Assembly: GCF_020386975.1 (NCBI RefSeq)
Contig: NZ_JABFNK010000005.1
Span: 620,001-684,000, forward strand
Length of the DNA stretch: 64,000 nucleotides
From: Thermococcus bergensis
GTDB lineage: Archaea > Methanobacteriota_B > Thermococci > Thermococcales > Thermococcaceae
Direction of reading: 5' to 3'
This document shows positions 4,862 through 56,556 of the stretch, piece after piece. The notes under the pieces are model-generated. The model saw only the letters and a list, made by a program, of their open reading frames with translations. It ran no database searches and had not been told where the DNA came from. How positions within the stretch are numbered: position 1 is the stretch's first letter; every line of letters starts with the position of its first letter. The translations under genes and the position numbers were made by a program.

Positions 4862-5491
4862 ATGGTAGTGAAAGAGAAGCTTTACACGGTGAAGAAGGCG
4901 AGTGAGATACTCGGCGTCCACCCCAAGACAATCCAGAAATGGGACAGAGAAGGAAAAATCAAAACCGTTAGAACACCCGGCGGAAGGAGGAGAATACCAG
5001 AAAGCGAAATAAAAAGACTTCTCGGAATAACCGAGGAGAAAGGCTTAATCATTGGCTACGCAAGAGTCTCAAGCCACACACAAAAAGACGACTTGGAAAG
5101 ACAGGTTGAGACCATCAAACAATACGCAAAAGAACGTGGCTGGCAAGTTCAAATCTTTAAAGACATTGGCTCAGGATTAAATGAGAACAGGAAAAACTAC
5201 CGGAAGCTTCTCGAACTTGTGACAAACGGGGAAGTCTCAAAAGTTATCATCACCTACCCCGACAGGCTCACTCGTTTCGGTTTCAAAACTCTCGAATTCT
5301 TCTTCAAGGAGAACGGTGCAGAGATAATCATTATCAACGACAAAGAAAACTCTCCACGAGAAGAACTCATTGAAGACTTAATAACCATAATCTCGCACTT
5401 CGCTGGAAAGCTCTACGGAATGCGCTCCCACAAATACAAAAAGCTCAAGGAAGGCGTGAAAAAACTAATCGAGGAGGTCGAGAATGACTAA
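4862..5491 (+). CDS. tnpA: IS607 transposase TnpA (serine recombinase with MerR-type helix-turn-helix)
   Basis: 209 residues. Residues about 5-55 form a MerR-like DNA-binding domain ([24 protein letters not shown] and the [12 protein letters not shown] wing). Residues about 62-200 are a resolvase catalytic domain with [10 protein letters not shown] (catalytic Ser70), the conserved Arg in [20 protein letters not shown] and YPDRLTRFG. This enzyme excises and inserts the element through a 5' phosphoserine intermediate. The ATG at 4862 starts the conserved MerR helix; an in-frame GTG 18 bases earlier lacks a better ribosome site. It overlaps tnpB by 8 bp, implying translational coupling. Confidence 0.92.
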
Positions 5492-6737
5492 AGTTGTTTT
5501 AACATACAGAATGCCCCACAACTGGAACATTGATTTGTTCCTCAAAGAATACCAAAAACTCCTCCAAAGAGCGATCGACGAAATATGGGAAAACACGACT
5601 TGGAAAGAAAAGAGAGTTAAGCATAGATATTCTCTCGGAAGAAAAAATTATCGCTACTACGGGACAACTCGCTTAATCCCCTATTTTCCGCAGTCTAATG
5701 AGTTCAAGCGAAAACTGAGGAACGAACTCCTCCGAGAGTGGCCTTTCGCCAAGCACTACGTTGATTCTGCAATAAAGACCGCTTATTCAATCCTCAAAAG
5801 CTGGAGACAGAACTACCTCAAAGGAAAGAGAAAGAGAGTAAAACCAGTCGTTAAAAGGAAGTTCGTGAGGGTTAAAACAACACTAATGAAGGTCGAAGGC
5901 TCGAAGATAAGGGTAACCATCAAGCCGAGGGAAGAATACCTTGAGCTGGACTTCTCAAAAGAATGGTTCTATGAAAAGGTCAAGAACTGGAATGTTGGCG
6001 AGCTGATAATCAGGGAGAGCGACGTTCTGCTAACCTTCTCAAAGGAAGTCGAGTTCTCTGGAAGAATCAAAATCGGTATTGACAGCAACTTAATGAGCCT
6101 CGACATCTTTCACCCTGAAAAAGGCTGGATTAGAGTGGACTTGAGCGAACTGCACAGGGTTGCCGAGACGTATGACAGAATTATTGATATGCTAAAAAGC
6201 GTTCAGCGGAAAGCTCCGAAGAGGATTGGTTTATTGCTTAAAAAATACTGGACTAGGAGGAGAAACAGGATTGAGGATTACCTGAACAAGCTCGCAGTCC
6301 AGCTTTCGAGGGAGTTTCCCGATGCGGTTTTTGTCTTCGAGGATTTGAACAAGTTCAAAATGCTCCAGAATGGTTCGAGGAAGTTTAACAGGAAGCTCTC
6401 CCGTGCCACTTGGAAGAAGATTGTTGGAAAGCTTTCTTATCGTGTTCCCGTAGAGTTTGTTAATCCTGCTTACACCTCATCCACCTGCCCGGTGTGTGGG
6501 AGTAGGTTAGAGTCCCGAAACGGGCTGGTGGAGTGTCCTAACTGTGGGTTTAAGGCGGATAGGCAGTTTGTTGGTGCTTTCAACGTTTTCGTGCGGGGAC
6601 TTGGGGTCGCCCTGAGTGGGGCTGAGCGTGATGATTTGCTCCCCGATGAACCCGGAGGGGAGCTGAACGTGATGAAGCCCAAGTCCGTCGTGAGAGTTGA
6701 TTTGAACGGCCGGAGGTTCACTCACACTTACTCATAA
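5484..6737 (+). CDS. tnpB: TnpB, IS607-associated RNA-guided RuvC endonuclease
   Basis: 417 residues, full length for TnpB. After an N-terminal helical and WED-like region come the RuvC pieces: Asp200 in IGIDSN, Glu286 in VFEDLNKF and Asp359 in FKADRQ, so the DED triad is complete. A zinc ribbon with two Cys pairs (CPVCG, CPNCG) lies at about residues 333-353. The family uses an omega/reRNA transcribed from the element's right end to cut DNA next to a TAM, which keeps the element in place after excision. The C-terminal tail after Asp359 is long (about 58 residues), Pro/Gly/Arg-rich, and encoded by highly paired DNA, so part of it may serve RNA rather than protein function. Confidence 0.93.
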
Positions 6738-6752: not shown

Positions 6753-6794
6753 AGACCCCGAGTGATTTTTAAACCCTCTTTCGCTCTTTTTATC

Positions 6795-9545
6795 ATGCAT
6801 CCACTTTTAAAAAAGGCCATAGAAGAAAAGTTCGGGGGCCTTAATGAGCTCCAAATAAGGGCTTTTGAAGAAGTTAGCTCAGGGAAGAGCGTTTTAATCA
6901 TAGCACCCACAGGAAGTGGAAAAACCGAGGCTGCTGTGCTTCCTGTTTTTAACGCAATTTTAGAAGAAAGGCTAGACCCTATATCTGTCATCTATATAGC
7001 TCCTTTAAAGGCTCTTAACAGGGACTTGCTGGACAGGTTGTTGTGGTGGGGGGAAAAGCTTGGGCTTAATGTGGAAGTGAGGCACGGCGATACTTCAGCC
7101 TATAGAAAAGCCCAGCAGGTGAAAAAGCCTCCTCACATGCTAATCATAACCCCCGAAACCCTTGGAGTAATCCTCACGATGAAATCTTTTCGAAAAGCCC
7201 TCAAAAACGTTAAGTTTGTGATAGTAGATGAAATAGTGGAGCTTGTCGATAACAAGAGGGGAGCTCAGCTTAGCTTAGCCCTTGAGAGGCTTGCTGAAGT
7301 TGCAGATTTTCAGAGGATTGGTCTTTCAGCAACCGTTGGGAACGAAGAGGAAATTAAGGCATGGCTCAAGGCAGAGAGCATTGTCAGACCTCCAATTGAA
7401 AAGGGCTACAAAATTAAAGTCCTCTTTCCGCAGCCCGATGAGAAGGATCTTGAGCTCTCCACCAGCTTAAGCATTTCTCTCGATGTTGCCACGAGGCTAA
7501 GGGTTCTTTGGGAGATAATAGAAAAGCACGAGAGGGCGTTGGTATTTACGAACACACGGCAGTTTGCCGAAATTCTTGCCCATCGCTTAAAAGCATGGGG
7601 CAAGCCAGTAGAAGTCCATCACGGCAGCCTTTCACGAGAAGCGAGGATAAATGCAGAGAGGGCTTTGAAAGAAGGCAAGATAAAAGCCCTTGTGTGCACA
7701 TCTTCCATGGAGCTTGGAATTGATATCGGAGATGTGGACGTTGTAATTCAATATATGAGCCCGAGACAAGTAAACAGGCTTATCCAGAGAATAGGCAGAG
7801 CTAAGCACAGGGCGGGGGAAGTTAGTGAGGGCTATATAATCGCCACAAACATTGAGGATTACCTCGAAAGCCTGGTAATAGCCCAGAGGGCACTTGAAGG
7901 GAAGCTTGAAGCGGTGGAGCCATATGAAAACGCCCTTGACGTTCTCGGGCATTTTATTGTGGGCCTTTTAATAGAACATAGAAGATTACCAAAGGAAGTT
8001 CCCTTTGAGATCGCAAAGAGAGCTTATCCCTACAGAAATCTGAGGTGGGAGGAATACGGCGAAGTTTTAAACATGTTAAGTGAGGCAGGTTTAATCGGCT
8101 ATGATGAAGAGAAGGGCCTTCTCTACCTGAGGAGAGGGGCTTATCGGTATTATTACGAGAACCTTTCCACGATTCCGGATGAGATCAGCTATAGAGTTTT
8201 CGACATAAAAAGCGGGAGGATAATTGGCCGCTTGGACGAGAGCTTTGTTATGGATCTTGAAGAGGGCATGGAGTTTATAATGCACGGCAGGAGCTGGATT
8301 CTGCTGGGGATTGATGAAGAGTCGAGGCTGCTGAAAGTAAGGGAAAGCAAGAGTCTGGAAAGTGCTGTACCGAGCTGGGAAGGAGAAATGATTCCCGTCC
8401 CCTTTGAAGTGGCCCAGGACGTTGGAAGGCTAAAAAGAGAGCTTCTTTTCGATTTTAACTCCGGTAAGGCATTTATCTCCAAGGTCGATTTCAACGAGGA
8501 GGAGCTTGAGCTTGTCCTTTCAATCCTAAAGAAGCAGGAGCCTCTAGGCACTGACAGGGACATTGGAGTAGAATCCCTCCCAAAGGCGTTAATTATCCAT
8601 GCAGATTTTGGAAACAAAGCTAACGAAGCCATAGGGAGGTTTCTTTTAGCGTTCTTGGCTGCAAAATATGGGAAAGTTTTCTCCATGAAGGCGCAGGCCC
8701 ATGCAATAGTCATTAACTCGCCTTTCCAGCTCAACCCGGGTGAGGTTAAGGAGTATCTCCTTCAAGATGCGAGGGCGCTTCCCTTTGTTGTCTCAAGGGC
8801 AATAAGGGAGAGCCCGGCTTACAGGTGGAGAATGTTAAACGTAGCGAAAAGAATTGGAGCATTGCGGAGAGATGCAAAGATAAGAAAGGTTGAGAGGCTC
8901 TTTGAAGGAACAGTGATTGAAAAGGAAACATTAAATGAGCTTTTCCATGACAAGATAGACGTAAAAAGAGCTGAAGAGGTTCTGAAAGCAATCAAAGAGG
9001 GAAAAATCCGGGTAAAGGGTGTTTTAAGAAGAGAGCCTTCACCCCTTGGCAGTATTAACCTAAGCGTCGGTGGAGAGTTTTTGGTCAGCGGGGAACTTGA
9101 GAAAGATGAGATACTAATGCTGTTTAAGGAAAGGCTTCTCAACACGGAAATTGCGCTGATATGTACCAACTGCGGATGGAAGAGCACCACAAAAGTTCTG
9201 CGCTTAAAGAACCGTTTGGACTACCTTCAGTGTCCGAAATGTTCCTCCAAGATGATTGCAGTTGCGCATCCTATAGATGCGGAGCTTTTTGTCTCTGCAT
9301 TGAAGAAGCTCAAGAAAGGGGAGAAACTCGAAAAAGAAGAGGAGAGTGCCTATAGGAGGCTGATAAAGGCAAGCGACTTAATAAAAGCTTATGGCTTTGA
9401 TGCGGTTTTAGCACTCGCAAGCTATGGAGTAGGGGCAGATACCGCGGCAAGAATTTTGAGCCAGTATAAGGGAGAAGCCCTTCTGGTTGCTCTTTTGGAA
9501 GCTGAGAGAAAGTATATAAAAACAAGAAAGTTCTGGAAAGAGTAG
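6795..9545 (+). CDS. Lhr-type DEAD/H-box superfamily 2 helicase
   Basis: 916 residues. Walker A APTGSGKTEA (residues 37-46), a DEIVEL Walker B, motif III LSATVGN, GIDIGDVDVV, and motif VI QRIGRAKH define two RecA domains. ENALDVLGHFIVGLL after them is the winged-helix start typical of Lhr proteins. Near the C terminus a CTNCG...CPKC zinc ribbon is followed by a helix-hairpin-like end (SYGVGADTAARILSQY). Archaeal Lhr and ASH-Ski2 helicases act in DNA repair or RNA decay; which subgroup this is cannot be settled by eye. TTTTTAAA at 6771-6778 sits about 25 bp before the ATG, so the message is leaderless or nearly so, with its promoter right beside the IS607 right end. Confidence 0.88.
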   Translation: MHPLLKKAIEEKFGGLNELQIRAFEEVSSGKSVLIIAPTGSGKTEAAVLPVFNAILEERLDPISVIYIAPLKALNRDLLDRLLWWGEKLGLNVEVRHGDTSAYRKAQQVKKPPHMLIITPETLGVILTMKSFRKALKNVKFVIVDEIVELVDNKRGAQLSLALERLAEVADFQRIGLSATVGNEEEIKAWLKAESIVRPPIEKGYKIKVLFPQPDEKDLELSTSLSISLDVATRLRVLWEIIEKHERALVFTNTRQFAEILAHRLKAWGKPVEVHHGSLSREARINAERALKEGKIKALVCTSSMELGIDIGDVDVVIQYMSPRQVNRLIQRIGRAKHRAGEVSEGYIIATNIEDYLESLVIAQRALEGKLEAVEPYENALDVLGHFIVGLLIEHRRLPKEVPFEIAKRAYPYRNLRWEEYGEVLNMLSEAGLIGYDEEKGLLYLRRGAYRYYYENLSTIPDEISYRVFDIKSGRIIGRLDESFVMDLEEGMEFIMHGRSWILLGIDEESRLLKVRESKSLESAVPSWEGEMIPVPFEVAQDVGRLKRELLFDFNSGKAFISKVDFNEEELELVLSILKKQEPLGTDRDIGVESLPKALIIHADFGNKANEAIGRFLLAFLAAKYGKVFSMKAQAHAIVINSPFQLNPGEVKEYLLQDARALPFVVSRAIRESPAYRWRMLNVAKRIGALRRDAKIRKVERLFEGTVIEKETLNELFHDKIDVKRAEEVLKAIKEGKIRVKGVLRREPSPLGSINLSVGGEFLVSGELEKDEILMLFKERLLNTEIALICTNCGWKSTTKVLRLKNRLDYLQCPKCSSKMIAVAHPIDAELFVSALKKLKKGEKLEKEEESAYRRLIKASDLIKAYGFDAVLALASYGVGADTAARILSQYKGEALLVALLEAERKYIKTRKFWKE

Positions 9546-10480: not shown

Positions 10481-11533
10481 TCAGCTCCTCCCGTAGATCT
10501 CGTTGACCTTCCTCAAAAACTCACTTGCCTTGACTACGTCTCTAACGTCTATCCGTTCGCCCTTTGTGTGGGAAATGTCGAGGTTTCCGGGGCCGAAAAC
10601 AATCGTCTTTGTTCCGTTGTACATGAAGTTAATGGCATCTGTCCAGCTTCTCATTCCTCCGAAGTCTTCCAGATCAACTTCTTCCATGGCTTTTTTAGCC
10701 AGCTGCACTATCTCTTCGCTCTCGTCAAGTTCATAGCCGTCCCATATTTCCGTGTACTCATACCGGAGGGTGTATTCGTCCAGGATGGGTTCCATTAAGT
10801 CCAGAACGTCCTCAACTTCCTGGTCAGGCAAGAGCCTCGCTTCAAACCTTCCCTTGCAGAGGGCTGGAATTAGGTAGTAGGGGTTCTCACATATCAGCTC
10901 CTGCAGCCCTATGTAGGCATCGAAGTACTTCCCCTTCTGCTTGAAGGGTTCAAGAGCCTTAAGCTCCTCTATCATCTTGTAAGCCTGGTCTATGGCGTTT
11001 ATTCCGCTCTCGGGGCATGCTCCGTGGGCTTCTTTACCATCAACTTCGAAGTAAGCTTCTATGTTTCCTGCATGAGCTATGTGCACTTCAAGGTCGGTTG
11101 GCTCTATTACTATTGCCATCTTTGGTTTGTAGCGCTCCATAAACAGAGCAGACCCCATTCCTCCTTTTTCTTCGTCGCTCACAAATACAACTCCGACGTT
11201 AAGGTCTTGCTTATCCCTCTTGAGGCTCTCAAGCATTAGGAGGACGCTTGCCAGTCCGCCTTTAACATCACTAGCTCCCGTACCGTAGACGATATTTCCC
11301 CTGACAAAAGGCTCGGCTCTTACGTCTATCGTGTCCATGTGAACTTCAAAGAAGAGCTCAGCCTCGGGGTTTACAACGAGGTCGATTACCTTTCCATCGC
11401 TCTCTATGTGAACATCATAGTCCAATCTGTGGAGGAACTCCATTATGTGCAATGCAAGACGATCTTCCTGCCCTGATGGTGATGGAATCTTTAAAAGCTC
11501 GACCAAAATTTCCTTTGCTCTCTCAGCTTTCAT
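10481..11533 (-). CDS. M20-family metallopeptidase/deacetylase (ArgE/DapE/LysK-like)
   Basis: 350 residues. The metal ligands are visible: His and Asp in EVHMDT, Asp in GASDVKGG, the Glu-Glu pair in VSDEEKGG, an acidic residue in IEPTD and the last His in ISHTKGE. The central lid domain begins after IEPTD. The family removes acyl or aminoacyl groups (acetylornithine, succinyl-diaminopimelate, LysW-lysine). No arginine or lysine biosynthesis genes lie nearby, so a biosynthetic name is not given. The ATG at 11533 follows AGGTGAGCC; an in-frame GTG 9 bases earlier lies inside that ribosome site. A TATA box on the minus strand is at about 11563-11573. Confidence 0.85.
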   Translation of the reverse strand: MKAERAKEILVELLKIPSPSGQEDRLALHIMEFLHRLDYDVHIESDGKVIDLVVNPEAELFFEVHMDTIDVRAEPFVRGNIVYGTGASDVKGGLASVLLMLESLKRDKQDLNVGVVFVSDEEKGGMGSALFMERYKPKMAIVIEPTDLEVHIAHAGNIEAYFEVDGKEAHGACPESGINAIDQAYKMIEELKALEPFKQKGKYFDAYIGLQELICENPYYLIPALCKGRFEARLLPDQEVEDVLDLMEPILDEYTLRYEYTEIWDGYELDESEEIVQLAKKAMEEVDLEDFGGMRSWTDAINFMYNGTKTIVFGPGNLDISHTKGERIDVRDVVKASEFLRKVNEIYGRS

Positions 11534-11665
11534 TTGGCTCACCTAATTTGTTTTGGGTTAAGAGGCTTATAAAGGTTTGTTGGTCTTCGGGTTTCGGGTT
11601 TGAGGATTTTTGTCAAACCAACATCGTAAGTATTTCAGAAGCGTTCTCTAATATGAGGGATATCC

Positions 11666-12254
11666 ATGGGGGTTAGTCCAAAGGTTATACTGTCTGCAAT
11701 CCTCGCCGGCCTTCTGGTCTTTTCGCTGGCAGGCTACGTGGGAGCCTTTGGAAAAGGGGGCTCTGGAAAGCTAGAATACAAGGTTTACAGCAAAGACCAG
11801 ATCATGAGCGGCGCCTACAAGGTTTACGGCACTCCTAAGCTCGGCTTCTGGGTGGCAAAAGTCGTTCTGAGGAACACTGGAAAGGGTGACATTACGGACA
11901 TCAGAATAACCTACTCGATAGGCAGGTACACGGCGCAGAGCGAGAAGAGTTATCCCGTGCTCGTCCCGAACGGCACAATCGTTGACCTCTACTATCCGAT
12001 CCTCTCAAGTGAGGTGACCAAGCTCACGGCATCAACCCCTGTCAACCTCCACATAACCATCCGCTACAAGATTAACGGCGAGGAGAGGGAGGAGACCATA
12101 ACAAGAAGCCTCAGCATCCTTGGAGTAAACGACTTCGTCTTCTCCTCGCTCTCACCAGAGGAAAGCACAGGAAGCTTTTACGACACCTTCAACAACGCTG
12201 AACTTTTAGCAGCGTGGGTAACTCCAAGTGACCCGGTCGTCAGGGAATTTGCAG
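11666..12254 (+). pseudogene. Transglutaminase-like family protein, 5' fragment only
   Basis: A start with GAGGGAT upstream opens a signal peptide (about residues 8-27, LSAILAGLLVFSLAGYVGA), then an all-beta domain of about 130 residues (AKVVLRNTGKGDITDIRITY, NLHITIRYKING). The segment SGSFYDTFNNAELLAAWVTPSDPVVREFA is what precedes the transglutaminase-like core in related Thermococcales secreted proteins, as I recall them; the core with its Cys-His-Asp triad is absent. After FA the reading frame runs into unrelated DNA and stops at 12277. The break at about 12250 coincides with the start of a helicase fragment, so this looks like a recombination junction. Confidence 0.65.
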
Positions 12255-12504
12255 AATGTGGTAGAGAGACTGGTTGACACTGTGGAGAGGTTCCAAGGTG
12301 GTGAGAAGGATGTTATCATAATTTCCATGGCATCAAGCGATCCAACTATTTAGCAACAGTATTTGACTTTATCTACAATCAGAATCGGTTTAATGTGGCT
12401 GCTAGCAGAATGAGGAAAAAGCTGATATTAGTACAGCATCGGCTTTTGACTTAGAACAGTTTGAGAAAATCAAAGTCTGGAAACGAAAATTTCAAAGGAA
12501 GTAA
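12250..12504 (+). pseudogene. Remnant of the C-terminal end of a superfamily 1 (Upf1/Dna2-like) helicase
   Basis: Three reading frames must be joined. 12255-12353 encodes VDTVERFQGGEKDVIIIS and then MASSDP, matching helicase motif V (TVxxFQGxExDVIIxS). 12353-12433 encodes FDFIYNQNRFNVAASRMRKK, matching motif VI (RxNVAxSRAxxKL). 12433-12504 gives the tail FDLEQFEKIKVWKRKFQRK and a stop. At least two frameshifts and some missing sequence separate them, so the gene is dead. Its last bases overlap the 3' end of the convergent helicase-nuclease gene. Only about the last 80 residues of a much larger protein survive. Confidence 0.7.
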
Positions 12505-15500
12505 TGATGATACGAATAACTTTGACGCCCTTTGAGCCTACCCTCTTTTATGTCCTCAATAATCTTTCTCACGTTGTTTTCAATATCATACTCATACTCC
12601 TCTGTCGTTATTAGGTGATCTGCTACTCCTATCTCCTTGTATTTCTCGAATTTTCTAAACCATCTACTCCGATATTCCATGTTATCTATCATTCCCAGGT
12701 GCTCCCAGTAGTATTCCTGTTCATTGTAGATTATCTTGAAGTCGGGCAGCAAATACTGTCTGCTAAAATCTTTAGGTTCATATTCAAATTCTACGCCAAG
12801 GTTGTCCAACGTTTTTGCTATTATCATTTCAATTTTTGACCTGACATACAAAGTTTTGCCATCTTTAAGTGTCACCTTGTAGGGCTTTGAAGCTGATGGC
12901 CTGTACTCAAATAGGAGGGTTGTTATGTTGTCTATCGCAGAATTCTCGTGAGCAGAGATTAAGAACTCGTAAAACTTATCCTTGAGGCTCTCGTGGATAA
13001 ATAGGTAGAGCTTCTTCTTTGCTCTAGTGATTCCTGTGTAGATAAGCTCCTTTGTAATGTAATTAGAACGTTCTGAGAGTACCAAGATCACATTATCAAA
13101 ATCGCTTCCCTGGGCTTTGTGAACTGTGATGGCGTACGCGGGTGAGAATCCTTCTACGTTCTTCTCTGCACCAGGAATTACTAACATTTTCTTAAGAGAC
13201 GTCAGATATTGTTTGTAACTGTCCCAGTACCATTTTCTCTTTTTAGGGGATTGTATTTTGTTTGTAATGGTCGTGACGAGCTTGTAGAGCTCGTCAATGT
13301 CATAAAACTTGGGATTTGGCAAACCATTTTTTATTTGGCTGTGGTCTTTTTTTGGGAGATACCCGATTGATCCATTAGCTAACGCTAGAACCCTCAGATC
13401 ACCAATGTTCCAATATTGGTTTTCCTCACAGATTATTTTTGTTCCAGGTTTAAATGCCCCAGTACTCAGGATATCTCCGGCAATCTGGTAGTTGATGCCT
13501 AATGTTCCAAATCTACCCACCCTACGAGGAGCTAATATCTGAAGTTGATCTAAGTAGGAATAGTCAAAAGTTCCATCTGGTTCGAATAGCTCAACAAACA
13601 ATTCACTAATGCTTGTTTCTGCTGTAGATTCAACAGATGTTAACTTTGATAATATTTCTTTTAGCTTTCTTATTAAGTCCTCGTAGGACTCAAAGTAGAC
13701 GATTTCTAATGTTTCATCCTCGGTCTGGAAGACATCTTCTAGATCCTCAAATGATATCATTTTGTCTTCTCTGAACAATGCAGCCAACTTTTCAATTCTA
13801 GAGGCACCAGGATTTGCAGTTGAGAATCTCAAGTTAGTTTGAAGTTCAACATAATTTCCTTCCAAATTTTTTGCTTTTAAGTAGTTCACGATATCCACAA
13901 GGGGTCTACCAACTCCAATTGGAGGCAATTGTTTGTCATCCCCCACAAGAATAACATGTTCCACTGCGTGCGGGTTTATGGTTGCAAACAATAATGCAAG
14001 AAGTACCTCATCGACCATTGAGGCTTCATCAATTATTACGACTTTAGGAGTTATTGGCTTGAAGTGCGTATTTTGAATCCCTCTAATGAACTCTTGGAAA
14101 AGATGATAGTTTCCATCAAGAATCTTGGGGATGTAACTTGAAAAATTATGTGGAAACTGATAGAGGTACCTGTGTATTGTTGAAACCAAAATGCGAGAAC
14201 TTTCAGGGTTTATCCCCTCTTTTTTAAGCCGGTCTCTGATTACTAGGCTAGCTTTTCCGGTAGGAGTTACTATCAGTATTGGTTTTCGCTCGTCATTGAA
14301 ATACTTTACCAAGTTAACAACAGCAGCAGTTTTCCCGCTTCCAGCACTACCGAGAATTACTGAAAATCCATTTTTAAGCACTGAGTTGTAGAGTTTCTGT
14401 CTCTCCTTAGAGAATGTAATTTGAGAATAATAATTTAGCCGATCGTCAAACTTTTGAATATCCCGTTCGACTAACTCTTCTACGATAGCATCGGGAACTG
14501 AATACGTCTTTGAGATCAAGGTGTTGACGAATTTCTCAATGTGTGCCTCAATGTTTCTTAAAGATTTTAATTGATACAGCTTTTTGCCATTTATGGTGTA
14601 GAATATGAACTTGCTTCTAAATTCAGGTCTGTTCTCATACTCATCAAGTAGATTCTCATTTATGTTCAACTCCTTGTCTATGTAGTAAAGGGGATAACTC
14701 TTGATCCTTTCCATGACCATCTCTCTTAGGAGAGCTGAATTGCCCTCGATCGTAGCGCTTTCCTTTAGTATTGTCGTTATTAATGCTGAAACACGCTCTA
14801 TCGAGGTAGCACGAATTATCATAGGTGGTTCCCAGTTGACAAATTCCGGGTCTGGGAACATGGGTATGTCTATCTGGTAAAGGGAAATTCCGTAATCATT
14901 ATCTTCAATGCGCCAGTTGTTGTCCTGAAGTTCGTACAGATACTCCTCAAGAATCGTGTAAGGATTCTCGCGATACCGATTTACTCTTCCTAGAATCTTC
15001 TGAAATTGGGGTTTTGATAAGTCAAATCTGGATAGAAACTCGATAGTCGAATATTCATCTCGTAAATACGGGATTATTCTCTTAAGGCCCGGGCTCAGAT
15101 TTTCTGACTCCAACACCTTTATGTTATCAGGGTTCGCTAGGAACTCTTCAACACTACCAAATTTCTGAAGTATTAAAGAATAGAACTCGTCGACTGTTTC
15201 AGAGGCATTCTTTAATTCATCACTGATGAGCACTTCCATAAGGTTCCGGAAACCTGGATACTTTCCACGAGAGTCCCAGGCTATTTTAAGAAGGTGGACT
15301 ATTCTTTTCTTTAATACTTGTACTTCCTCAAAATCAATAATACCATGCTGCTCTACAATATCAAGTTTACGTTTAATCTCGTAAAGTAGATAGATGGCCT
15401 TATCCGAAGGGACATGCATTGATACATATTTAAAATGAGGAATTAACGTAGGATCTTTAATGCTCACTGTGATCTCTTTTAGGAGGTTTTCTTTTTCTTC

Positions 15501-16208
15501 TTCCCGGATTTCGAGATCTAAGTATTCATGATATGGCAATAAGACTATTGTTTCTGGGTCAATATCAATCCTGAACTGCCAGGCAATTTTTGGGAAGTAT
15601 CTAGTCCGCCAATCTTTGTTTTTCTCTTCAATGAGCTCAGGGGGCATTTCGTATTCAGATGGATATTCAATGTTCTTTACTAGTGCTGCTCCTACTAGTA
15701 AGTACTTTCTTTCGTCACCATTAATGGGGTTTCCGTAGTTAGCATAGAAAAATACGATGGAACTTCCAGGTTTGATTTTATTTATGTATTCCTTTACTCT
15801 CTCTTCTAGATCTGGAGGGTATCTGTAGTTGCCTTTTTTTACGTCGAATGACAGTTTAAAATTCCAAGTGTAGACAGAATTAGGGTGTAGCACCGCATCT
15901 ATCGGCGGAACTTTTTCTCCGAATTTAGGGTTTGTGTCCGAAAATGGATGGGGGTCTTTAACAGTACAATTAGCGTTCCCATTTAAGTTTATGCACCAGT
16001 AACATGGAGGTACGTAGCCAATGTTTTTCCAAACTTCACAAATTTCCTTTCCCGCAGTATCTTGCTCTAGGTTCAAATCCCTACGTCTTTGGATTCTAGA
16101 AGACAGAAGAGAGTAGTTGTCAATGCAATAGATGTTTTCTTCAGGTTTGTTACATACTTTTCCATTCCACTTGTTATCATGCCACGCAACTCGAACTGTC
16201 ACATGCAT
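12492..16208 (-). CDS. Cys-rich / RecD-like helicase / PD-(D/E)XK nuclease fusion, possible defence or repair protein
   Basis: 1238 residues. The N terminus has six Cys in about 60 residues (19, 28, 57, 69, 72, 81) plus His10, a possible Fe-S or zinc site. Residues about 90-590 are unassigned. The SF1B helicase follows: GSAGSGKT (about 620), TPTGKAS, IDEASMVDE (about 724), LVGDDKQLPP, LQTNLRFS, ITVHKAQGSDFD (about 1030) and YTGITRAKKKLYL. Last comes a nuclease-like domain: SKIE (about 1124), LPDF (about 1154), YYWEHLGM (about 1169). The ATG at 16208 follows GGGAGGTC. The gene looks more AT-rich than its neighbours and sits beside two pseudogenes, suggesting transfer. RecD-like helicases joined to nucleases process DNA ends; the actual role is unknown. 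Confidence 0.8.
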   Translation of the reverse strand: MHVTVRVAWHDNKWNGKVCNKPEENIYCIDNYSLLSSRIQRRRDLNLEQDTAGKEICEVWKNIGYVPPCYWCINLNGNANCTVKDPHPFSDTNPKFGEKVPPIDAVLHPNSVYTWNFKLSFDVKKGNYRYPPDLEERVKEYINKIKPGSSIVFFYANYGNPINGDERKYLLVGAALVKNIEYPSEYEMPPELIEEKNKDWRTRYFPKIAWQFRIDIDPETIVLLPYHEYLDLEIREEEKENLLKEITVSIKDPTLIPHFKYVSMHVPSDKAIYLLYEIKRKLDIVEQHGIIDFEEVQVLKKRIVHLLKIAWDSRGKYPGFRNLMEVLISDELKNASETVDEFYSLILQKFGSVEEFLANPDNIKVLESENLSPGLKRIIPYLRDEYSTIEFLSRFDLSKPQFQKILGRVNRYRENPYTILEEYLYELQDNNWRIEDNDYGISLYQIDIPMFPDPEFVNWEPPMIIRATSIERVSALITTILKESATIEGNSALLREMVMERIKSYPLYYIDKELNINENLLDEYENRPEFRSKFIFYTINGKKLYQLKSLRNIEAHIEKFVNTLISKTYSVPDAIVEELVERDIQKFDDRLNYYSQITFSKERQKLYNSVLKNGFSVILGSAGSGKTAAVVNLVKYFNDERKPILIVTPTGKASLVIRDRLKKEGINPESSRILVSTIHRYLYQFPHNFSSYIPKILDGNYHLFQEFIRGIQNTHFKPITPKVVIIDEASMVDEVLLALLFATINPHAVEHVILVGDDKQLPPIGVGRPLVDIVNYLKAKNLEGNYVELQTNLRFSTANPGASRIEKLAALFREDKMISFEDLEDVFQTEDETLEIVYFESYEDLIRKLKEILSKLTSVESTAETSISELFVELFEPDGTFDYSYLDQLQILAPRRVGRFGTLGINYQIAGDILSTGAFKPGTKIICEENQYWNIGDLRVLALANGSIGYLPKKDHSQIKNGLPNPKFYDIDELYKLVTTITNKIQSPKKRKWYWDSYKQYLTSLKKMLVIPGAEKNVEGFSPAYAITVHKAQGSDFDNVILVLSERSNYITKELIYTGITRAKKKLYLFIHESLKDKFYEFLISAHENSAIDNITTLLFEYRPSASKPYKVTLKDGKTLYVRSKIEMIIAKTLDNLGVEFEYEPKDFSRQYLLPDFKIIYNEQEYYWEHLGMIDNMEYRSRWFRKFEKYKEIGVADHLITTEEYEYDIENNVRKIIEDIKEGRLKGRQSYSYHHYFL

Positions 16209-16627
16209 GATAAGACCTCCCGTTGTAGAGGTTAATGGACAATAAGTGTAGTAATTCCTTAGGATTATCAATTTAAAAAGATACCTAATAGTCCAAATGT
16301 AGTATCCTGTGTTTTGAATTGACTTCCAGTAATAACTCAAGATTCGAGAACGTACCATGCTAGGCGATGAATAGGTGAGGATACTTCAAATTTGCTGGGC
16401 AAATCCTTTTAAGCGATGGTTTAGAAAAGTTGTTGAGATGTGAGGCGATGAATCGGGGTGTTTGGGCGATGAATTCCTCTCCTCTCTAATGGCTTTGTTT
16501 GGTAAATGCGGCGATTTCCGCCGTGTTTTGGAGTGTGGGGCGATGAAGAGATTCATCCCTCCTGACGGGACTTGCTCCCCCGAGATGAAGAGGCGGTCCC
16601 CCCTCGAGCCTTTTTGAGGTGATTACA
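16209..16627. other. 419-bp non-coding region with repeated GGCGATGAA words and a GC-rich right half
   Basis: No convincing protein gene on either strand. GGCGATGAA or GGGCGATGAA occurs at 16363-16371, 16444-16452, 16465-16473 and 16539-16547, all on the plus strand, with irregular spacing. A CCTTTTAAG TATA-like element at about 16408-16416 could start a plus-strand RNA near 16437. Small hairpins are visible: GGCG/CGCC at 16510-16522 and GATGAA/TTCATC at 16542-16557. The last 80 bp are C/G-rich and end in the ribosome site of the next gene. Confidence 0.5.
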
Positions 16628-17317
16628 ATGATTCCCATAGAAATCCCACCAAACACGGTAATGCTCAAGGGGATAGGGTATGATTCAAACATCTATTTGT
16701 TTCGAGATCGGAGAGAAGGCTTGATAGTTGATACTGGAACAGGGGTTTACTGGCACAGGTATTTTGAGGTGTTTGATAGGGAAGGCTACCTTGAGGGTTT
16801 AGAAAAAGTCACGATTCTGAATACGCATGAGCACTTCGACCACATTGGAGGAAATAGAAAGTTTAAGGAGTTTTTGGAGGAGAGAGGTATTAAAGTTTTC
16901 TTTGCTGCCCACACTCTCACAGCGGAGGTTATTGAAAAGGGAAACGACTACATTATTCTCTCATACGCCTATGGAAGACGGTTTATGCCGCATAGTGTTG
17001 ATATAAGGCTTGATGATGGAAGCGTTTTGAAGGTCGGAAGTAAGGAGCTTAAAGTCATCTATACACCCGGCCATACTGCAGGAAGCCTCTGTCTATATGA
17101 GCCAGAAGAAAAAGTCCTTTTTACAGGGGATACTGTGTTTAGGGGCACGGTTGGAAGGACTGACTTGCCCACGGGGAGCTTTGAAGAGTTGGTAAGAAGC
17201 CTAAAGAAGCTGGAGGCACTGGATGTTTACATTGCCTTGCCCGGACATGGGAAGCCTATAACAAACTGGGAAGAGAATTTTGAATTAATCAAAAAGGTTT
17301 TGGGGGCTTTTGAGTGA
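16628..17317 (+). CDS. Metallo-beta-lactamase-fold hydrolase (glyoxalase II-like)
   Basis: 229 residues. The zinc site is complete: THEHFDHIGG, the His in TPGHTAGS, the Asp in FTGDTVFRG and the last His in LPGHGKPI. GRTDLPTG after the Asp is typical of the glyoxalase II/persulfide dioxygenase group, which hydrolyses thioesters or related substrates in the cytoplasm. The substrate is unknown. The ATG at 16628 has GAGGTGAT upstream; the in-frame GTG at 16619 is part of that site. The stop overlaps the GTG start of the next gene (GTGA), so the two are translationally coupled. Confidence 0.9.
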   Translation: MIPIEIPPNTVMLKGIGYDSNIYLFRDRREGLIVDTGTGVYWHRYFEVFDREGYLEGLEKVTILNTHEHFDHIGGNRKFKEFLEERGIKVFFAAHTLTAEVIEKGNDYIILSYAYGRRFMPHSVDIRLDDGSVLKVGSKELKVIYTPGHTAGSLCLYEPEEKVLFTGDTVFRGTVGRTDLPTGSFEELVRSLKKLEALDVYIALPGHGKPITNWEENFELIKKVLGAFE

Positions 17318-56454: not shown

Positions 56455-56556
56455 TCTCTTTTTGGCTCGGTTGCGAGGGTACTCATCATTACTCAGCTAG
56501 CGAAATTGTCTTCATCGCCCGAAATTTTTATATTTTCATCCTTTAAGTGCCTTTTG

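Follow-up and report, generated by a model that had tools for sequence, protein, structure and literature searches.

A candidate PDC-S68 defence protein with helicase and nuclease-like domains, carried by a mobile cassette at a C/D-box small RNA gene in Thermococcus bergensis

Here we report the analysis of a 64,000-nucleotide stretch of the Thermococcus bergensis genome (contig NZ_JABFNK010000005.1, positions 620,001 to 684,000; hereafter the window), which carries a gene for a 1238-residue protein with a Cys-containing N-terminal region, a RecD2-like helix-hairpin-helix (HHH) region, a superfamily 1B (SF1B) helicase and a predicted PD-(D/E)XK-type nuclease domain (Table 1). The protein adds a new member, from an archaeon, to an already known candidate family, PDC-S68, and its gene belongs to a small cassette that is bounded on the right by the 5' end of an sR55-like C/D-box small RNA (sRNA) gene. 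The open reading frame (ORF) proposed in an initial annotation of the window is real: it runs for 1238 codons from the ATG at 16208 with no stop inside, and the Shine-Dalgarno-like sequence GGGAGGT lies immediately 5' of this ATG. The gene is present as a single copy in its own genome and evolves under purifying selection, with a ratio of nonsynonymous to synonymous substitution rates (dN/dS) of 0.17 against the copy in genome G069 and 0.15 against the copy in genome G001. It is also comparatively AT-rich, with a GC content of 38.8% vs 43.7% for the whole window; the initial annotation had seen it as richer in AT than the core genes around it.

PDC-S68 is a single-gene phage defence candidate of PADLOC-DB 2.0 (models PDLC05064-05066), and the protein matches its profile end to end, with residues 1-1238 aligned to model positions 71-1272 of 1273 (E=0, 1307.7 bits). 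The RecD-like models of the same database cover the middle of the protein only, and the GajB models only the common helicase core. The PDC families are putative single-gene defence candidates obtained via 'guilt by embedding', most of which have not been validated by experiment (PMC12988326), and PDC-S68 was named in no paper found in our literature search.

Table 1. Coordinates of the PDC-S68 gene, its domains and the neighbouring features in the window.
Feature	Position	Strand	Evidence or remark
Conserved left flank, peptidase gene	10481..11542	minus	77-78 bp separate it from the right flank in the five relatives with an empty site
Gene wreck 1, initial 201 residues of a 560-aa gene	11666..12264	plus	Gene intact at same site in G070
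Gene wreck 2, frame-shifted remnant of an AAA_12 (Upf1/DNA2-type SF1 helicase) C terminus	12255..12454	plus	
PDC-S68 gene, 1238 aa, intact	12492..16208	minus	ORF; dN/dS 0.15-0.17 vs two relatives
PD-(D/E)XK-type nuclease domain, approximately residues 1110-1215	12564..12881	minus	Acidic residues E1127, D1156 and E1169; L1171 at the lysine position of E-x-K
SF1B RecD-like helicase, approximately residues 600-1075	12984..14411	minus	All motifs invariant
RecD2-like HHH region, approximately residues 370-590	14439..15101	minus	PF14490, structural comparison
N-terminal region, residues 1-300	15309..16208	minus	Invariant W9, H10, D11, W14, G16, C19, C28, C69; confident predicted fold
Right end of mobile cassette	16209..16538		Common to G001 and G069; three GGCGATGAA cores at 16363, 16444, 16465
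Right copy of 18-bp attachment core GGCGATGAAGAGATTCAT	16539..16556	plus	Left copy missing in this genome
sR55-like C/D-box sRNA gene, integration target	16539..16605 (3' end approximate)	plus	Under Rfam cut-off
Conserved right flank, metallo-beta-lactamase-fold hydrolase gene	16619..17317	plus	Named by eye

Conservation was assessed in an alignment of 25 homologues that are 25-92% identical to the query. The complete SF1B helicase recognised initially was confirmed, as all SF1 motifs are present and Walker A, Walker B, GDxxQLPPIG, HKxQGSDF and TGxTRAKK are invariant or nearly so; the corresponding Pfam domains in the protein are AAA_19, AAA_30 and UvrD_C_2. The NCBIfam equivalog of RecD2 (TIGR01448) scored 180.3 bits vs a cut-off of 500, and the protein is therefore RecD-like, not RecD2. 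The HHH domain of RecD2 (PF14490) was matched around residues 385-432 in 16 of 28 homologues, and a Foldseek search with the N-terminal model retrieved RecD2 itself (3gp8) at probability 0.91, with an E value not below 0.001. The helicase core and HHH region would also suit a DNA-repair helicase-nuclease with RecD2- or AddAB-like end processing, mobile by happenstance; the low RecD2 score, the restriction of the gene to a few Thermococcales genomes and the occurrence of homologues on plasmids, within restriction-modification (R-M) operons and as neighbours of Shedu, Dnd and DISARM genes all argue against such a role, which we regard as very improbable, the least favoured of the alternatives considered here.

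The N-terminal region had been described as a six-Cys terminus. Six cysteines do lie in the first 100 residues (19, 28, 57, 69, 72 and 81), but invariance is limited to C19, C28 and C69; C57, C72 and C81 are not conserved, and the description therefore overstates the N-terminal site. The structure of the N-terminal 560 residues was predicted with high confidence (pLDDT 90, pTM 0.93). Apart from its RecD2-like HHH part, the predicted fold gave no significant structural match in the Foldseek and BFVD fold searches, and a PDB profile search with the N-terminal region returned chance matches only. The annotation of about 500 unassigned residues is thus too wide with respect to the HHH match and the RecD models, which begin near residues 464-556, and it holds for the remainder. 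The top Foldseek match of the N-terminal model was PH1033, an EVE-type protein, at an E value of only 0.32, and the resemblance to EVE was seen by eye. An EVE/ASCH (PUA-like) identity of residues about 125-290 was rejected, with profiles at background and EVE proteins ranking 42nd or lower among 288 targets.

At the C terminus, the initially noted strings SKIE, LPDF and YYWEHLG are present, and the residues E1127, D1156, E1169, H1170 and G1172, as well as Y1179 and W1183, are invariant. Together they follow the pattern E...PD...E-H-L-G, in which the acidic metal ligands E, D and E are retained. The predicted structure of the C-terminal 154 residues (pLDDT 87.8) has the alpha/beta topology of the PD-(D/E)XK type, and among its best Foldseek neighbours were Cdn1, Bax1 (probability 0.99), R2 retrotransposon proteins, Can2 and McrC, with a best E value above 0.01; all five carry PD-(D/E)XK nuclease domains. 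A PDB profile search with the C terminus aligned T7 endonuclease I over the segment containing the E and D motifs, a match that is suggestive at most at an E value of about 0.9. The predicted topology fits the fold proposed for this domain and did not refute it, and the best neighbours are largely PD-(D/E)XK nucleases, though none with an E value below 0.001.

The PDC-S68 gene is patchily distributed among Thermococcales, being present in 4 of 94 genomes spread over four genera. The window copy is 98.8% identical at the DNA level to that of G069, a metagenome-assembled genome (MAG) from another genus, whereas the flanking genes of the same genome pair share 76.4% (peptidase), 63.8% (metallo-beta-lactamase-fold hydrolase) and 71.6% (TatD) identity, which therefore points to recent transfer. 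In five close relatives the site is empty, with the two flanks about 77 bp apart. The right boundary of the cassette coincides with the 5' end of the sR55-like sRNA gene, and the sRNA stays complete. The attachment core, GGCGATGAAGAG[AG]TTCAT, occurs just once in nearly all genomes where it is present, and is duplicated exactly around PDC-S68, at a spacing of 4.9 kb in G001 and 4.4 kb in G069, forming an 18-bp direct repeat. In G027, two copies with one mismatch lie 17 kb apart around a defence-gene island encoding McrC, an AAA protein in the McrB position, AbiEi, AbiEii and a 199-aa protein of the Phage_integrase family; the other two-copy genomes are G059, with the copies on different contigs, and G049, with a mismatch and at another location. 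Just inside the repeat, the insertions of G001, G069 and G027 have similar left ends by eye (TTA..G....TTTTACC.ACTT), which suggests one integration system. The term 'accessory pocket' used initially is therefore apt, given the patchy gene, the empty sites in relatives, the near-identity across genera and the repeat-bracketed cassette in two genomes.

In the window, the right end of the cassette is intact and aligns with the right ends in G001 and G069, including the three further GGCGATGAA cores. The repeat-bearing non-coding region reported initially is likewise real, with four GGCGATGAA copies to the right of the gene (16363, 16444, 16465 and 16539), and six copies occur in the whole window vs 0.4 expected by chance. 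The fourth copy is the start of the sR55-like sRNA. The extra copies could represent arm sites for an integrase or scars left by previous insertions; their reading as starts of further C/D RNAs was dropped, as no D box was seen by eye after the first. The Rfam model sR55 (RF01307) scored 20.6 bits in the window; its highest score, 31.6 bits, was reached in G080 and spanned all 65 positions, and both values are below its gathering cut-off of 35 bits. The element is strongly conserved, with box C and a CTGA box invariant in 16 genomes. A second C/D-box sRNA, sR39, is located at 56465-56519 of the window on the minus strand (76.4 bits), and its 5' end has the string GGCGATGAAGA in common with the attachment core.

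Two gene wrecks had been described as flanking the gene, and both exist, but both lie to its left. Where the left repeat would be expected, the window contains wreck 1, which is 91% identical over 201 residues to the intact G070 gene, then the AAA_12 helicase fragment and then the PDC-S68 stop codon. A gene wreck on the right side was ruled out, the DNA there being non-coding sequence and the sRNA. About 5 kb from the PDC-S68 site, a TnpB-like ORF (IS605/IS1341 type, by eye; 5484-6737, plus strand) adjoins a gene for an Lhr-like helicase.

The G001 and G069 cassettes contain no large gene other than PDC-S68, and no R-M gene. No integrase-like ORF was recognised in the PDC-S68 cassettes by reading the ORF list, of which few small ORFs were profile-scanned, and movement in trans is therefore presumed. 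A short frame starting with MKRF is found in the G001, G069 and G027 insertions, its start codon overlapped by the left repeat (L036:12681-13514, L038:14612-14973), and a 67-aa ORF near the left repeat of G001 has a ribbon-helix-helix look and no Pfam match; either could be the remnant of a split integrase, or an excisionase. A sole large gene in two cassettes, together with relatives on plasmids and in a few phage-collection records, might be taken to indicate a protein that serves the mobile element, in inter-element competition or in replication and maintenance of the cassette, and not host immunity. This option, which is compatible with a defence role, appears quite unlikely to us considering that relatives are embedded in chromosomal R-M operons and that their partners are several unrelated defence genes.

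The genomic context of the homologues was analysed by per-protein scans of neighbours picked by eye, with an unselected set scanned as a check. In six bacterial loci (L008, L010, L011, L021, L022 and L030), the gene is part of a type I R-M operon with the order hsdM-hsdS-PDC-S68-hsdR, with one extra gene between hsdS and PDC-S68 in L011 and a TmtA gene between PDC-S68 and hsdR in L030. Other homologues are neighboured by Dnd-type genes, OLD/GajA (Gabija-like) genes, type II R-M genes and DrmD of DISARM, a Shedu gene adjoins the divergent Thermococcales homologue in G093, and on a 24-kb Paracoccus plasmid the homologue directly follows a type ISP restriction-modification enzyme; relatives also occur in three unannotated phage-collection records. 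The unselected set comprised the two nearest ORFs of at least 120 aa on each side of 24 homologues, that is 86 proteins after omission of three very long ones. At E<1e-30, 7 of the 86 matched a single R model of type I restriction, 6 a single S model and 6 a single M model. Among 54 control proteins of the window there was no type I R, S or M match, and only four helicase-type models were matched, by one member each, consistent with the Lhr-like helicase at 6762-9545. The homologues do not lie in housekeeping loci, which the initial annotation had named as a refuting observation, but are patchy, horizontally transferred and repeatedly found within or beside R-M and other defence genes. In three Bacteroidota, the product encoded immediately after PDC-S68 is a protein of about 2300 aa (L030:8180-15106, L024:13658-20590, L026:13660-20589); the L030 copy matches PADLOC TmtA and the L024 and L026 copies are 63-71% identical, making it a second recurrent partner. 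The homologue of Candidatus Alkanophaga volatiphilum (L004:9995-13679) is split between a 314-aa and a 918-aa ORF that lie in different frames, as a pseudogene or through an assembly error.

The conserved operon order in six loci raises the possibility that PDC-S68 is a type I restriction accessory, adding a fourth subunit to the operon to process HsdR-cut DNA or to control HsdR, and not a stand-alone system. It is an unlikely explanation, if the least so among the alternatives, as hsd genes are not found close to the archaeal cassettes or to many other homologues, and in G001 and G069 the cassettes lack any R-M gene. The preferred interpretation, which we consider probable, is that PDC-S68 is a single-protein antiviral or anti-plasmid effector brought into the chromosome on a small mobile cassette. 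A defence role of the protein is very likely, and the defence-locus proposal of the initial annotation gains support from the family and the context; it was graded there as an inference, and we also infer it. In the proposed mechanism, the Cys-containing N-terminal and RecD2-like HHH regions would load on invading DNA, probably where it offers ends, nicks or single-stranded stretches; the SF1B motor would then translocate along this DNA, and the C-terminal nuclease would cut it, degrading it from ends or gaps. The recurrent type I restriction partner suggests a substrate, and in operons carrying relatives the ends left by type I restriction would be an obvious one. Genome comparison places the small cassette itself at the 5' end of the sR55-like sRNA gene, where it presumably arrived by movement in trans.

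The use of the insertion site was surveyed in 39 genomes in which the peptidase gene and the sRNA core share a contig, keep the ancestral orientation and lie no more than 50 kb apart. In 26 of them the site is empty (54-88 bp), in one it holds 483 bp and in 12 it holds 4.4-31 kb. Defence cargo next to the sRNA was found in this genome, G069 and G027. The sRNA-adjacent site is a hotspot for accessory genes and not an island reserved for defence. As judged by eye, the site of G084 (L061:1203-15668) carries metabolic cargo, a 15-kb cluster with the look of carbon-monoxide dehydrogenase (CODH), membrane hydrogenase and Mrp energy-conservation genes, and that of G077 (L059 and L060, G077:C1:1626112-1657384) a 31-kb insertion with peptide transporter- and hydrolase-like genes; the site of G048 (L143:377-14314) is nearly filled by one 4645-aa ORF, apparently a giant surface protein.

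Several observations weigh against a mobile single-protein defence effector. The literature gave no reported activity for any PDC-S68 member, in a class of families that are mostly unvalidated (PMC12988326). In 25 of 25 aligned homologues the lysine position of E-x-K is occupied by Leu (L1171), and the nuclease must therefore use another residue, or may be inactive; K/R1186 is a possible candidate for the stand-in. In Foldseek searches, no match of the N-terminal or C-terminal model reached E<0.001. The window copy has the right repeat only, and with the left repeat lost in this genome it is therefore probably fixed. Finally, the other cargo of the site looks non-defence (transport, a CODH/hydrogenase cluster, surface or regulatory proteins; partly by eye), and the site alone is therefore no proof of defence.

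The sRNA-targeted cassette is the least expected part of the finding. We lean, if only slightly, towards the view that in Thermococcales a C/D-box guide-RNA gene serves as the attachment site of compact, integrase-less, trans-mobilised immune cassettes, so that single-gene defences of the PDC-S68 type are swapped between genera at one fixed address, as with tRNA genes for phage and plasmid islands. No report of C/D-box sRNA attachment sites was found in the mainly open-access literature, searched without 'C/D' as a query, and an earlier report may exist. Thermococcales would thereby gain a specific non-tRNA integration address for the exchange of defence genes, which can be sought in any new genome. 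With its conserved metal-site and Cys residues named, PDC-S68 becomes less of a model-library entry and more of an enzyme that is open to testing.

Comparison with known systems places the protein within the PDC-S68 family, to which it is alike from end to end with no excluding difference; the archaeal copies reside in an sRNA-targeted cassette, not in an R-M operon. RecD2 (TIGR01448) and RecD of RecBCD resemble it in the HHH region and the SF1B helicase core; the protein described here differs in scoring well below the RecD2 cut-off, in having an additional N-terminal region with Cys residues and a nuclease domain at the C terminus, and in being mobile and patchy. Hna, a helicase-nuclease phage defence protein with 3'-5' exonuclease activity on single-stranded DNA (PMC13381803), and Gabija likewise combine an ATPase motor with a nuclease against phage DNA, a comparison of how they work and not of membership, the likeness to GajB being limited to the common helicase core. 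Among Thermococcales islands, PYG1 of Pyrococcus yayanosii is integrated at a tRNA gene, bracketed by a 43-bp repeat and carries AbiEii and a putative R-M system (PMC5126054). The cassette described here is similar to PYG1-like islands in its site-specific insertion, its direct-repeat bracketing and the RNA gene kept complete, and differs in targeting a C/D-box sRNA instead of a tRNA, in its repeat of 18 bp instead of 43 bp, and in having no recognisable integrase.

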